A DNA stretch of 39,367 nucleotides, taken from positions 1 to 39,367 of the forward strand of contig JAAXZE010000075.1 in assembly GCA_012720075.1 (NCBI GenBank). Reading direction: 5' to 3'. The translations under genes were made by a program, and so were the position numbers. The notes beneath the pieces are model-generated. The model ran no database searches. It was given only the letters and a program-made list of their open reading frames with translations, and was not told where the DNA came from. The stretch comes from Clostridia bacterium (GTDB taxonomy: Bacteria; Bacillota; Peptococcia; Peptococcales; BICA1-8). Positions 1-36,886 of the stretch are shown here, piece by piece. Numbering within the stretch: the stretch's first letter is position 1; the number at the start of each line of letters is the position of its first letter.

Positions 1-33
1 ATTGTTTGAGCTAGCTTTTCGTTGATAATAAAT
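1..33. repeat. Partial copy (right-arm end) of the long inverted-repeat element seen at 28675-29048
   Basis: attgtttgagctagcttttcgttgataataaat is identical over 33 bp to 28981-29013; caacaagYtga follows in both copies. Confidence 0.85.
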
Positions 34-53
34 ATGGTTAAGCAACAAGTTGA

Positions 54-11167: not shown

Positions 11168-12196
11168 ATGAACAGTACAGCAATTGTCCTGGCAGCCGGG
11201 CAAGGAACCAGAATGAAATCTAAAATTCCCAAGGTTCTTCACGGGGTAGTTGGTAAACCAATGCTGGGCCATGTGCTGGATGCATTGACGGAAGCCGGTA
11301 TAAAAAGAAAAATTGTGGTTTTGGGTCATGGAGCTCCAAAAATTGAACAATGGTTGCCGGCGGATGTGGAGGTAGTTTATCAACGGCAGCAGTTAGGGAC
11401 AGGACACGCTGTATTACAGGCCAAGGAACTATTAAAAGATACTACCGGCCCTGTTTTGGTAGTATGTGGTGATACACCGTTACTTAGGGCTTCCACTTTA
11501 AAAAGTTTATTGGCTGTACATACTGAGGCAGATGCCAAAATTACCGTTTTAACGGCCAATGTTGCCAATCCCAAGGGTTATGGCCGAATTATCAGAGAAA
11601 ACAACAAAATTAAAGCTATCGTGGAGGAAAAGGATGCCTCCCCCGAGGAAAAAGCAATAACCGAGATTAACACAGGTTCATATTGTTTTCAAGGGGATTT
11701 TTTAGGGGAGTATTTAGATAAATTAAACAATGAAAACGCCCAAGGTGAATATTACCTGACCGATCTAATAAAACTTGCCGTTCAAGACAATCTAAAGGTA
11801 GAGGCTTTTCTCTTAGAGGATATAAAAGAAAGTTTAGGAATAAATAATCGTATCCAGCTGGCGGAAGCGGAACAAATTTTCAGAATGCGTATTTTAGAGG
11901 ATTTAATGCTGGCGGGAGTAACTATTATTGATCCACATTCCACTTATATTCAATCAACGGTTCAGGTTGGAATGGATACCGTCATTTACCCCGGAACTAT
12001 TCTGGAAGGACAAACTACCATTGGTGAAAACTGTGTAATAGGACCGGGAGTAAGGATTACCGATAGCATTATCGGCAACCATTGCCAAATCCAAAATTCC
12101 GTTCTCGTTGAAAGTAAAGTTGATATCGGTTGCCGAATAGGTCCTTTTGCTTACTTGAGAGCAGTTTCTGTCTCTGAGGATAATTACAATACATAA
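11168..12196 (+). CDS. glmU: GlmU-like UDP-GlcNAc pyrophosphorylase, C-terminally truncated (342 aa)
   Basis: [26 protein letters not shown]; hexapeptide repeats start, but sequence diverges after RIGPFAYLR and stops. Confidence 0.85.
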
Positions 12197-19854: not shown

Positions 19855-19908
19855 TCACTGAAAGGTTTTACCTTGCCCATCATCTTAAAAGGAGGGAAGG
19901 AAGGTTTA

Positions 19909-20472
19909 ATGAAAGCAACCGGAATTGTACGGCGTATAGATGACTTAGGACGAGTTGTAATTCCCAAGGAAATTAGGAGAACGCTTCGTATCCGTGAGGG
20001 AGATCCTTTAGAAATTTTTGTTGATCGGGAAGGCGAAGTAATTTTGAAGAAATATTCCCCAATCGGAGAACTGGGGGAGTTTGCAAAAGAGTATGCTGAC
20101 TCTTTGTATGAGGCTATGGGACATATTGCTTGTATTGCCGATAGAGATCAGATAATTGCTGTAGCGGGAGGACCCAAAAAAGAGTTTTTAAATAAATCGG
20201 TCGGCTCCGTTATTTAACGAATAATGGAAGAAAGAAAAGCGGTAATGATCAATGACCCGGAAAACCATCCGTATTTTAAAGGCAGGGAAGGCGAAGAAAT
20301 TGGTATTGAAAGCAAATTTACAGCAGAAGTGATTGCGCCGATAATTGCGGAAGGTGATCCTATAGGAGCCGTTATTATAGGCACCAGAGAGCCAAATGTG
20401 AAAATGTCTGATCTTGAATTAAAATTAGCGGAAACAGCGGCCTCATTTTTAGCCAAACAAATGGAACAATAA
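19909..20472 (+). pseudogene. spoVT: SpoVT stage V sporulation regulator interrupted by in-frame TAA at 20215-20217
   Basis: MKATGIVRRIDDLGRVVIPKEIRRTLRIREGDPLEIFVDR...LNKSVGSVI*RIMEERKAV...AETAASFLAKQMEQ in one reading frame. Confidence 0.85.
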
Positions 20473-20475
20473 AGC

Positions 20476-20501
20476 GGTGGTCAAAAGAGACCACCTTTTT
20501 T
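20476..20501 (+). terminator. Terminator ggtggtcaaaagagaccacctttttt
   Basis: Stem with T-run after spoVT. Confidence 0.8.
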
Positions 20502-20567
20502 ATTTGCTATTTTGGACCGGCTAAGCTAATATAAAAGTTGGAATTTGGAATAGAGGAGACCTAAAAC

Positions 20568-27599: not shown

Positions 27600-28487
27600 A
27601 TGATGCTTAATGCAGCTATAGATATCGGTACCAATAGTACAAGGCTGTTAATAGCCCGTTGTGAGCAGGACGGGATTTTTCCGGTGTATACCCAGTTGGA
27701 AACAACTCGTATAGGCCAAGGGGTGGGAGCTACCGGCTATATCAGTTCATTAGCTTTATCCCGGACGTTGAAATGCTTGGAAGTTTATATGGAAAAATGT
27801 CGGCAGTATAAGGTCCAAAAGGTGAGGATTGTAGCCACCAGCGCAGTCAGAGATGCCCTTAATAAAAAAGAAGTGGCTCAAAAGATATACGACATAACGG
27901 GTATAGAACCGGAGATTTTATCGGGGGAAAAGGAAGCGAAACTAAGTTATTTAGGTGCAATTGCTGATTTTGAGCCCCAATCGACAGAAAGACAAAAGGT
28001 GGTTTTGGATATCGGCGGAGGCAGCACCGAATTAATTTATTCCCAGGGCAAAGTTGTAAAAGCAAAAAGTGTAAATTTGGGGGCTGTTCGACTTTTTGAA
28101 AATCCCGATTTGCTTAAAGATATGTCTAAAATGCTTTATCAACTAATTCCGGAAAACCTGGTACAAAACTCCTTTTTAATAGGTGTGGGCGGGACGGTAA
28201 CATCCCTTGTGGCAATTAAATTAGGATTGGAAAAGTATGATCCTAATCTGGTCCATGGAAGTTTATTGAGCCTGGAAGATGTTAAAAATATTGGAAAAAT
28301 GCTAAAGAGCCTGAGCTTGACTGAACGGCAAAAGGTAAAGGGACTGCAACCGGAGCGGGCCGATATCATACCTTTCGGCATTATGATTTTAGAAAAAGTG
28401 ATGGAACTTTTAAAAGCTCCGGAGATTAGAGTAAGTGAAAAGGATATTTTATATGGTATGCTAAAAACCTTGGATGGGGAATGCTAA
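27600..28487 (+). CDS. Ppx/GppA-family phosphatase
   Basis: AAIDIGTNSTRLLIARC; VVLDIGGGSTELIY; VGGTVTSLVAIKLGLEKYDPNLVHG. Confidence 0.93.
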   Translation: MMLNAAIDIGTNSTRLLIARCEQDGIFPVYTQLETTRIGQGVGATGYISSLALSRTLKCLEVYMEKCRQYKVQKVRIVATSAVRDALNKKEVAQKIYDITGIEPEILSGEKEAKLSYLGAIADFEPQSTERQKVVLDIGGGSTELIYSQGKVVKAKSVNLGAVRLFENPDLLKDMSKMLYQLIPENLVQNSFLIGVGGTVTSLVAIKLGLEKYDPNLVHGSLLSLEDVKNIGKMLKSLSLTERQKVKGLQPERADIIPFGIMILEKVMELLKAPEIRVSEKDILYGMLKTLDGEC

Positions 28488-28519
28488 TCTTAAACCGGAA
28501 TATTAAGGGAGGGTGTGTT

Positions 28520-28672
28520 ATGAGGTCAGACAATGTGGAAAAAAGCTATAAATGCAGCCAATGTGGGATGATGTTTACCGATCACGATAACAATTTAGAG
28601 TGTCCCTTTTGTCATCATCACTGTCAACCTGGTGAATGCGAAATAGTGTATGCGTCAAATGAAGATTACTAA
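28520..28672 (+). CDS. Small Zn-ribbon/rubredoxin-like protein
   Basis: YKCSQCGMMFTDHDNNLECPFCHHHCQPGEC: two CxxC knuckles. Confidence 0.65.
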   Translation: MRSDNVEKSYKCSQCGMMFTDHDNNLECPFCHHHCQPGECEIVYASNEDY

Positions 28673-28674
28673 TA

Positions 28675-29048
28675 AACGGCTTTTGCCGTTCTGACTGTCG
28701 ACAAAGTTATTAAAAGCTATTAATTAAAATGCAGCGAAAAGGCTAAGAGATTTATTATCAAGAGAAAAGCATTAGCGAGATTGAATAAAAAGAACGCAGG
28801 CGGCTGAGGAATAGAATTATCAATTGTTTGACCCGGCACTTAATTTAAACTATCAATTTTGTATCTTTTAAATAAAAATAATGAATAAAAATAAAAGAAT
28901 AATTAAGAACGTAACTATATTTTCAATTAAGTGCCGGGGAGTTTTGATAATTCCCGAAGCCACCGAGTTCATTCCTTATAATTGTTTGAGCTAGCTTTTC
29001 GTTGATAATAAATTTGTTTTGTCAACAAGCTGAACGGCTTTTGCCGTT
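28675..29048. repeat. ~375-bp long imperfect inverted repeat with an A/T-rich loop, bounded by AACGGCTTTTGCCGTT at both ends
   Basis: Ends 28675-28690 and 29033-29048; gactgtcgacaaag / ttttgtcaacaagc; atttattatcaa 28750-ish / ttgataataaat 29002-29013; cccggcacttaatt 28832-28845 / aattaagtgccggg 28925-28938. Confidence 0.8.
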
Positions 29049-29117
29049 ATTTTTTTGTCACTGATTTGGGGTCCTTTTCATATCATATTATGGATTAATG
29101 AAAAGGAGTGTGAAAAA

Positions 29118-30395
29118 ATGTACCGCCCTGATCATTTGCAAAATATTGCTTATGTCTGGAGTAATACCGAAGGCTTAGTGGGTGATGACATAACCTTTTT
29201 AGTGGCAAGGGCTCTGATTAAATTAGAACAAGAAAGGCAAGGGATAGAAAAAGTTGTTGAAATCAGCGGAAGGAATGTAATTGACGCTGTTTCATGGTAC
29301 GAATATCCTAGAACGGTCCAAGGCCAATTATTAGTGGATTTGCATTTGGAATCAGCCGGTAAAGGAGAAAAAACCAAGTTTTATAAACTGGCTTTGCCTT
29401 ATCGAGCACCTATTAAATCTTTTCGGTTAGGAGAATTAAACCCCGAAGTAAAATTTGTGCATGCCAAGAAAATGGGGGGCGATAGTCTTTTAATAGAGGG
29501 GATAATTTGTCTAACCTGTTTGGGATATTTGCCTTGGCGGGGGAAAAAAAGTAATATAGGCGGTGCTTTTACAGATAGCAGCATAATAAAGCTGAATAGT
29601 TTATTGCCGGAAATAAAGGAAATGGTTTGCACTCAAATAAAGTTCAATCCCTTTGGTTATAGCATAAAGGATAATATTTTAAGTCTCAGAGGTTGGAAAG
29701 AAATCCATCTAATGTATATTGCCCAGGAAAGTAGAGGGGAAAGGATAGTGGTCACCCATCAAAACGAGCCTTTTGCCAAAGAAATAGAATTGAACGGTGA
29801 TCTGCGCTCTTTAAGCTATTGGGAAATTAATAATGAAAAAACGGAAAATTATGTCTTAGGGTCCAGGGAAGTTAAAGTGGTAGGCAATTTCCGGATTTCG
29901 GGCCAATCGGTGCCGGGAATGCCGGCAAACAGCCAGACCGGTGAAATACTAAAAAGCATCAAAGAAATGACCAAGATTATAAAAAATAAGCAAAAAAACA
30001 CCCCGGAAGGAAAATTAAATGAAGACAGAAAAACTGAGGAACTTATAAATAATCCTCCGGAGGAAATGAGGGAAGAGCCCATGGTTAGTCTGCCGGAGAA
30101 CTCGATAGATGAAATTGAGCGGGCTTCTGAGAGCGAAACTCCCGAAAGGGAAGCACCCCAGGCAACCGAGGAAGAAATTAGCGCTGAAAGGGAGCAGGAA
30201 TCGTCTCCGGAAGAGGAAAAGGAAGCAGTACCTCTAGTACCTCTGCTGTTGGAGGAAAAGAAAGAAAAAGTAATTGAAAAAGATTTAGAAGAAGAAAAAA
30301 CGGAGCTTACTTCGGATAATAAAGAAGGCACTATAATACCACGGCAATCCAAAAGGGAAAAGCTAAGTAAATATATGCGACCCTTAAAAAGTTGA
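29118..30395 (+). CDS. Uncharacterised protein with globular N-terminus and highly acidic Glu/Lys-rich C-terminal tail
   Basis: Good RBS (aaaggagtg) before MYRPDHLQNIAYVWSN; tail EEEISAEREQESSPEEEKEAVP... Confidence 0.75.
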   Translation: MYRPDHLQNIAYVWSNTEGLVGDDITFLVARALIKLEQERQGIEKVVEISGRNVIDAVSWYEYPRTVQGQLLVDLHLESAGKGEKTKFYKLALPYRAPIKSFRLGELNPEVKFVHAKKMGGDSLLIEGIICLTCLGYLPWRGKKSNIGGAFTDSSIIKLNSLLPEIKEMVCTQIKFNPFGYSIKDNILSLRGWKEIHLMYIAQESRGERIVVTHQNEPFAKEIELNGDLRSLSYWEINNEKTENYVLGSREVKVVGNFRISGQSVPGMPANSQTGEILKSIKEMTKIIKNKQKNTPEGKLNEDRKTEELINNPPEEMREEPMVSLPENSIDEIERASESETPEREAPQATEEEISAEREQESSPEEEKEAVPLVPLLLEEKKEKVIEKDLEEEKTELTSDNKEGTIIPRQSKREKLSKYMRPLKS

Positions 30396-34820: not shown

Positions 34821-34930
34821 ATATGTTTGAAAAATTAGGCGTATTATGGTAAAGTATATGGGTATAAATATTCTAGCTGTACTGTACCCATTTTGCTCCG
34901 GTTTTGACAGATTTGAGAGGAGGTAAATTT

Positions 34931-36886
34931 TTGAATCGGATTTTTAAGAACTTGGCTATTTACCTTTTAATAGTTCTAATAGCAGTTTCAGTTCTGCGGA
35001 TGACCAATACCCCGCCAGTTCAGGAAAAGGTTTTTGAAAACTTCACGGAATTTTATGAGGCTGTGGAAAAAGGCAAAGTTAAAAGCGTAGATATAATTAC
35101 CTATGAGCAATTCCAGGAATTATCTGGTGTTACCTCAGACGGTAAGAAATTTTCTTTGGAAGCCCCCAAAGACTACGATATGCTGATAGATAGATTGCTG
35201 GCCAATAATGTGAAAGTAAATCAATTACGCACGCCGTCTCAACCTTGGTGGATTTCGGTGTTGTCTACTTTATTGCCTGTCCTTCTATTAATCGGTGTCT
35301 TTTTCTTTATGATGCAGCAGACTCAAGGCGGCGGCGGTCGGGTGATGCAATTTGGTAAAAGCCGAGCCAAACTTCATACAGATGACAAAACGCGGGTTAC
35401 TTTTGCTGACGTAGCCGGTGCCGATGAAGTTAAAGAGGAATTAGAGGAAGTAGTAGAATTTTTAAAATACCCTAAAAAGTTTACTGAATTAGGTGCCAAA
35501 ATTCCCAAGGGTGTTTTATTGTACGGGCCCCCCGGGACCGGAAAAACGTTGTTGGCCAGAGCGGTTGCAGGTGAAGCAGGAGTACCTTTTTTTAGTATAA
35601 GTGGTTCAGATTTCGTAGAAATGTTTGTAGGGGTTGTTGCCGCAAGGGTTAGAGATTTATTTGAGCAAGCCAAAAAAAATGCCCCCTGCATAGTTTTCGT
35701 TGATGAAATCGATGCCGTTGGCCGTCAGAGAGGAGCCGGCTTAGGCGGCGGTCATGACGAGCGGGAACAAACCCTTAACCAATTGCTGGTATAGATGGAT
35801 GGTTTTAATGTAAACGAAGGCATTATTATTATTGCTGCAACCAACAGGCCGGATATTCTAGATCCAGCATTGTTGAGACCGGGGCGTTTTGACCGGCAGA
35901 TTACCGTTGATAGGCCCGATGTTAAAGGTCGGGAAGATATTTTGAAGGTCCATGTAAGGGGTAAACCCCTGGCTGAAAATGTGGATTTAGCCGTCTTAGC
36001 CAGGGGAACGCCGGGCTTTACCGGAGCAGATTTGGCTAACCTGGTTAATGAAGCTGCCCTTTTGGCGGCTCGGCGAGGGAAAAAAACCATAGGTATGACC
36101 GAGATGGAACAAGCCATTGAAAGGGTAATTGCGGGGCCGGAGAAAAAGTCCAGGGTCATCAGCGAGTTTGAGAAAAAAATTGTTTCTTATCACGAGGCCG
36201 GCCATGCTTTGTTGGCCGAACTTTTGCCCCATTGTGACCCTCTGCATAAAGTGTCTATTATCCCCAGAGGAAGAGCGGGCGGTTACACCCTCCTGTTGCC
36301 CAGAGAGGACCGGAATTACATGACTCGGTCTCAGCTGTTAGACCAAATAACCATGATGTTGGGCGGAAGGGTTGCCGAGGCCATTGTTTTAAACGAAATA
36401 AGCACCGGAGCTCAAAATGATTTGGAAAGAGCTACTTCAACAGTCAGGAAAATGATTACCGAATGGGGTATGTCCGATGAGTTGGGGCCTATCACCTTTG
36501 GCAACAGGCAAGAGCAGGTTTTCTTAGGCCGCGATATAGCCAGGGACCGCAATTATAGTGAAGCCGTTGCTTTTGCTATAGATAAAGAAGTACGGAGGAT
36601 TATGGAAGAGGCTTATGAAAGAGCCGAAAAGCTCCTCAAAGAAAATATTGATAAACTGCATTTGATTGCTCAGACCTTAATGGAAAAAGAGGTTATCGAG
36701 GCCGACGAGTTTGCTGAACTAATGAAAAAGGTAACCCATTCGACCAAAAGAGACGGTGATGAGGCTACTCCCCAGGATACCATCAAATATGATGAAGAGG
36801 TAATAAATCTTCATAATGAAGAACCGGAGGAACCCACCATTAAAATTACTTTTAGGAGTGATTATAAATGGAACAAACCTTTGTAA
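34931..36886 (+). pseudogene. ftsH: ATP-dependent zinc metalloprotease FtsH interrupted by in-frame TAG at 35792-35794
   Basis: [24 protein letters not shown] ... [40 protein letters not shown]...HEAGH in one frame; split by a single stop. Confidence 0.9.

Follow-up and report, generated by a model that had tools for sequence, protein, structure and literature searches.

What is the intergenic segment of about 375 bp at positions 28675–29048 of the window, by which we mean the whole 39,367-nucleotide stretch of Clostridia bacterium DNA that was analyzed? A sequence-only reading had described it as folding back on itself and had offered three guesses: a MITE or other non-autonomous transposon, a structured non-coding RNA of large size, or a terminator-like element built on a long hairpin. 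The source genome (G000) is a draft of 2.64 Mb in 206 contigs. We consider it very probable that the segment holds a MITE of an IS1182-family insertion sequence (IS), mobilized in trans and duplicating hairpins, which carries a captured rod-like structure of many phyla and has been amplified in this genome.

The fold-back itself was borne out. A 406-nt stretch folds at −62 kcal/mol, compared to −36.8 ± 4.3 in dinucleotide shuffles (z = −5.8; none of 100 as good). The inner inverted repeats that had been pointed out are present, at 28832–28853/28917–28938 and 28745–28761/29002–29018, around the expected A/T-rich loop, whose length is refined from ~75 to ~79 nt (28846–28924). As had also been said, no ORF of at least 100 aa lies within 28675–29048. 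The supposed palindromic ends of the element are real as sequence and misplaced as ends. The palindrome AACGGCTTTTGCCGTT is an exact direct repeat on the two sides (16/16), and both repeats lie outside the element, because similarity between copies stops at the element ends and the flanks differ from copy to copy. The segment is a 342-bp element with one copy of AACGGCTTTTGCCGTT on each side, the two copies being identical. The arms tgtcgacaaag/ttttgtcaaca, which the first reading had paired, are better described as insertion-sequence terminal inverted repeats. The features are as follows.

28675..28690, no strand: left copy of the putatively duplicated target stem-loop AACGGCTTTTGCCGTT; elsewhere in the genome the element has different stem-loops at this place
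28691..28706, forward: left terminal inverted repeat CTGACTGTCGACAAAG, common to other copies and to the IS left end (C62, C109 of G000; G003:C109)
28691..29032, forward: whole MITE, 342 bp; ~40 aligned copies, mostly 85–97% identical, with edges placed where the flanks change between copies
28750..29013, forward: conserved structured core, from the match to covariance model R1 and covariation
28750..28761, forward: basal helix P1, 5′ arm, pairing with 29002–29013 (fold, R1 match, covariation)
28792..28795, forward: helix P2, 5′ arm GAAC, pairing with GTTC at 28967–28970 (covariation, by eye from sequence)
28799..28809, forward: helix P3, 5′ arm GGCGGCTGAGG, pairing with 28953–28964 (covariation)
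28814..28823, forward: helix P4, 5′ arm GAATTATCAA, pairing with 28944–28953 (covariation)
28824..28831, forward: apical motif, 5′ part TTGTTTGA (family consensus CTGTTTGA; R1 match, cross-phylum motif)
28832..28938, forward: apical hairpin CCCGGCACTTAATT/AATTAAGTGCCGGG with the A/T-rich loop (inverted repeats, R1 match), standing where other family members have a short GC-loop-GC cap
28939..28943, forward: apical motif, 3′ part GAGTT (R1 match, cross-phylum motif)
29017..29032, forward: right terminal inverted repeat TTTTGTCAACAAGCTG; the right end GTTTGTCAACAAGCTG has 57 genome matches at ≤2 mismatches, its reversed control pattern 2
29033..29048, forward: right copy of the putatively duplicated stem-loop, followed by ATTTTTTTG (29049–29057), an intact terminator-like site
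1..52, forward: 3′ end of another copy, inside which the window contig starts (R1 match at 1–33, sequence), followed by stem-loop AGGGATGCCCAAGGGCATCCCT at 53–74

The element is repeated throughout its own genome. About 50 copies are present, 85–97% identical; at least 40 were scored, mostly within that range, and many contigs end inside one. In the copy alignment similarity spans CTGACTGTCGACAAAG to TTTGTCAACAAGCTG and then stops, and a short variant of ~176 bp exists (L061). Plasmid records held no DNA similar to the element. Copy number, terminal repeats and target duplication bear out the MITE guess. The combination that the sequence-only reading had named as telling against it, a single copy with neither conservation nor covariation, is contradicted on each of the three counts, the last two by the core described below.

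The ends identify the likely parent. The pair CTGACTGTCGACAAAG..TTTTGTCAACAAGCTG matches an IS, probably of the IS1182 family, that is fragmentary in this genome and intact in G003, a relative of the same family. In G000 the terminal repeats are common to the element and to a transposase-bearing IS whose transposase gene is incomplete in the assembly: the contig ends C62 and C109 show the element's left end followed by the start ATGCTGAAGAAGAAAAACCGTAAAATATTGAATCA, and contigs C165 and C110 show the right end with a coding C-terminus. At C62/C165 the element's terminal repeats enclose a coding body with the N-terminus MLKKKNRKILN and the C-terminus VEEKMGYVTTCIAFFCKYFRENFKIVYL. These two contigs are most simply the two sides of one insertion, since both carry the stem-loop TGACAGCATTAGCTGTCC. 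In the intact IS of G003, which lies between two different hairpins, the left end is laid out in the same way (CAGACTGTCGACAAAG..TGTCGGCAGTCTTTTTTT); the transposase of this IS begins MLKKKNR, scores 453 bits against the NCBIfam IS1182 model NF033551 (cut-off 270) and contains the Pfam domains DUF772 and DDE_Tnp_1_6. A decayed IS with a similar left end, also between hairpins, was found in G034, where the frame resembles the G003 transposase by eye. The lack of any PF13751 match in the own genome is explained by the draft assembly, which does not contain the IS body. The short IS termini had no match in NCBIfam, and the 28-residue C-terminal fragment matched only its two own-genome copies among 46 class genomes. 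With the body absent, the IS1182 assignment rests on the ends, the short termini and the G003 relative; on this sequence evidence the element is very probably a MITE of an IS1182-family IS.

What lies between the ends differs from the usual cargo. Elements in G003 and in G007 (same order) have the same helices with different sequences; helix P2, for example, reads GAGC/GCTC or AAGC/GCTT in G007. The G007 copies are without IS ends, and helix P1 continues into their flanks. The three G007 elements alone show two-sided changes in 13 of 52 pairs, and the covariance model R1, built from these three only, matches the window core (28750–29013) with E = 1.9e-20 and 81.8 bits. R1 matches were found in 4 of 46 class genomes. 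An alignment of 28 elements, which takes in Alkalibaculum, Lachnospiraceae, Anaerococcus and Bacteroides, answers the earlier call for a search for compensatory changes: 47 of 49 pairs have two-sided changes. In this alignment 90.4% of cells pair, a percentage inflated by fitting to the model, and the covariation score of 0.607 is far above the controls (0.186 shuffled, ≤0.12 slid). We infer that the core predates the MITE, as a pre-existing rod that was captured between IS ends.

The same architecture recurs far outside the class. In Bacteroidota, Pseudomonadota, Bacillota and other groups the core's apical motif, CTGTTTGAGC-(loop)-GCGAGTT, sits on top of stems that covary. Searched as CTGTTTGAGCGN{1,3}AGCGAGTT, it occurs in at least 120 genome-contig stretches from these three phyla, Patescibacteria, Nitrospinota and others, and in 12 viral contigs. 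Sequence outside the searched motif pairs at ≥9/10 positions in 68% of 111 hits, compared to 4% with mismatched flanks, and 89 different stems stand behind the motif. R1 aligns over its full length (1–166) to several of these rods. The number of rods per genome ranged from 1 to 143 in the 16 genomes checked. In the 77 cases where both neighbors were scored as genes the rods are intergenic, and all gene orientations are represented; 8 others are inside a long ORF; neighbor clustering of 109 cross-phylum loci gave no recurrent partner gene, just common ABC transporters and reductases. In G062, G069 and G060 the rods often occur as inverted pairs, 200–400 nt apart, and in many copies from Bacteroidota, Variovorax and Haemophilus a TTTTGGTTACTTTT..AAAAGTAAC hairpin follows the rod. 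The family was met neither in Rfam nor in the open literature that was searched: Rfam 15 gave no covariance-model match at gathering score or E ≤ 1, the motif string was met in the literature only incidentally, in papers unrelated by title, and word searches for structured intergenic repeats returned no description. We lean modestly toward the view that the core belongs to an uncatalogued cross-phylum family of covarying rods, 100–250 nt long and capped by CTGTTTGAGC-(GNA)-GCGAGTT, which spreads horizontally and was here taken up and multiplied by an IS1182-like transposon that duplicates hairpins. The cargo leads to a structured element of many phyla, whose covariation is very strong and whose apical motif hardly varies. 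If the core works as either RNA or single-stranded DNA, the protein that partners it and the way it spreads are testable.

These data also bear on the strongest of the alternatives, that we are dealing mainly with a family of functional structured RNA (or structured single-stranded DNA), to whose function the IS1182 ends are incidental here. Covariation of the core in genomes that have no terminal repeats, in G007 and across phyla, speaks for it, as do the paired stems beneath the apical motif; to that extent the earlier guess of a large structured RNA stands. G-U outnumbers A-C cells 81 to 19 in the model-fitted alignment, a skew biased toward G-U because the fitting model counts G-U as a pair, and the unfitted comparison of G-T with A-C gave 42 to 27 (p = 0.09, not significant). 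The commonest cap among the rods, GC-GNA-GC, is an unusually stable mini-hairpin as DNA; it favors DNA weakly, because the first search pattern forced part of the cap. Against a mainly functional reading, transposition accounts for the ~50 near-identical copies, their terminal repeats and their duplicated hairpins, no promoter-like excess was seen around the window copy, and no Rfam family matches. We regard this alternative as possible and clearly the less probable of the two.

An improbable alternative is that the core is a REP/REPIN-like repeat moved on single strands by a RAYT or other Y1 (IS200-like) transposase. Like REPs and REPINs, the rods are palindromic intergenic repeats found in many phyla, and the stable DNA cap would suit such a route. 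Unlike them, the rod is much longer, covaries, has another conserved motif and has no linked tyrosine transposase: the apical motif was near none of 30 Y1_Tnp loci, and among 18 carrier genomes searched, five (G007, G065, G066, G067 and G075) have the element and gave no match to Y1_Tnp.

We return to the MITE and to where it inserts. Stem-loops border the element directly at 81% of left junctions and 80% of right ones, compared to 15–17% in shuffled flanks. They are usually terminator-like and differ from one copy to the next. Among 17 two-ended copies, 9 reach a left/right identity score of at least 9, whereas the best of 272 mismatched left/right controls scored 7; the matches are 16/16 in the window copy, 17/17 in L004, 20/20 in L006 and 25/27 in L008. 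Among one-ended left junctions, 8 of 14 have a matching right junction on another contig, as with AAGTGGTTAGGGAAACCTAACCACTT (26/26). The duplicated unit is a complete hairpin of variable length, 16–29 bp. Hairpin flanks that are identical on both sides in about half of the testable copies therefore suggest that the IS inserts at hairpins and duplicates the whole hairpin, and this reading of the junction sequences fits duplication of an entire terminator hairpin on insertion. Two copies, L003 and L070, are without hairpins and have short direct repeats instead (ATAAATC, ATATA). Other exceptions are L002, L010 and L012, two-ended copies with two different hairpins, L009, with one hairpin only, and L061, with the same stem on both sides and differing loops; recombination between element copies is a likely cause. 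In L061, L011 and L021/L058 duplicated hairpins keep the stem and differ in the loop, perhaps beyond random decay.

The sequence-only reading had called for empty sites, and one comparison, which crosses genera, provides an element-free locus. G004 (same family, other genus) retains the neighboring genes and does not have the element between them; just one terminator hairpin precedes the downstream gene. The same intergenic region (L313, G004:C58) holds, before the downstream gene, an unrelated repeat-like sequence with GTGACCAGTGAC and TGATGCATC repeats.

The mixed junctions invite a further reading, in which the flanking hairpins come from cassette-like recombination of hairpin-ended units and are not duplicated targets. 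The different hairpins of L002, L010 and L012 and the shared stem with different loops of L061 would suit it. Stem and loop together match in the 9 two-ended copies, beyond every mismatched control, and in the 8 one-ended junctions, and the direct repeats of L003 and L070 resemble ordinary target duplications; on balance we find this reading improbable. Least probable is that the element is just a bidirectional terminator with a long hairpin, serving the genes on either side. The terminator-like right palindrome with its T-run (the sole such site in 28480–29140) and the similar hairpins of other copies speak for it, and for the flanks the terminator guess holds in part. These hairpins lie outside the repeated element and vary between copies, and at the syntenic locus G004 shows a terminator hairpin of its own without such an element; as a whole explanation it is ruled out by the copy and boundary data.

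Insertion at terminators has precedents. Group IIC introns insert at terminator hairpins, as our element appears to; unlike them, it has DNA-transposon ends and a duplicated hairpin, and Rfam group II intron models gave no gathering-score match in the window and none at E ≤ 1 in eight element-bearing loci. Bacterial IS-derived MITEs are likewise short, non-coding, intergenic and multi-copy, with the terminal inverted repeats of an IS of the same genome. The present element differs from them in that the duplicated target is a complete hairpin of 16–29 bp and the cargo is a conserved structure, not an internally deleted IS. The closest comparison is with IS1272 and TnSha1 of the IS1182 family, whose targets are stem-loops, in most cases terminators, chosen without preference for any primary sequence; IS1272 deletes (replaces) the target stem-loop, without target duplication (PMC4923244, PMC5678879). 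The stem-loop target is shared, and so, probably, is the transposase family of the relevant IS. Replacement of the stem-loop was not what we found: here it is duplicated, which fits 'pathway b' of Wan et al. 2017, where stem-loop duplication was drawn only as a hypothetical alternative. Our junctions offer natural evidence for IS1182-type insertion with a complete terminator hairpin duplicated, which the papers found had only drawn as a model, and how a DDE transposase reads a cruciform becomes directly testable.

We propose the following course of events. A full-length IS would supply the transposase in trans, and the enzyme would recognize the imperfect repeats CTGACTGTCGACAAAG on the left and TTTTGTCAACAAGCTG on the right. 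Strand transfer would occur at both feet of a terminator stem-loop in its extruded form. Because the element is joined at both feet, gap repair would then duplicate the entire stem-loop, AACGGCTTTTGCCGTT here and other hairpins elsewhere. The upstream gene would be parted from its own terminator for the same reason, and a full terminator would survive past the element. The pre-existing structured rod would at some point have been captured between IS ends and then amplified in this genome.

Three coding frames elsewhere in the window deserve mention. The ftsH gene (34904–36886) has a single in-frame TAG at ~35792–35794, where glutamate is expected (LNQLLV*MDGF), the remaining frame being open; a spoVT-like frame (19873–20560) has a single in-frame TAA ending at 20217, again where glutamate is expected (GSVI*RIMEERKAV). 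That a single window has two such changes from Glu to stop points to sequence errors or decay. GlmU is usually longer than 342 aa, the length of a glmU-like ORF (11168–12196) directly before prs, which may be truncated at its C-terminus.
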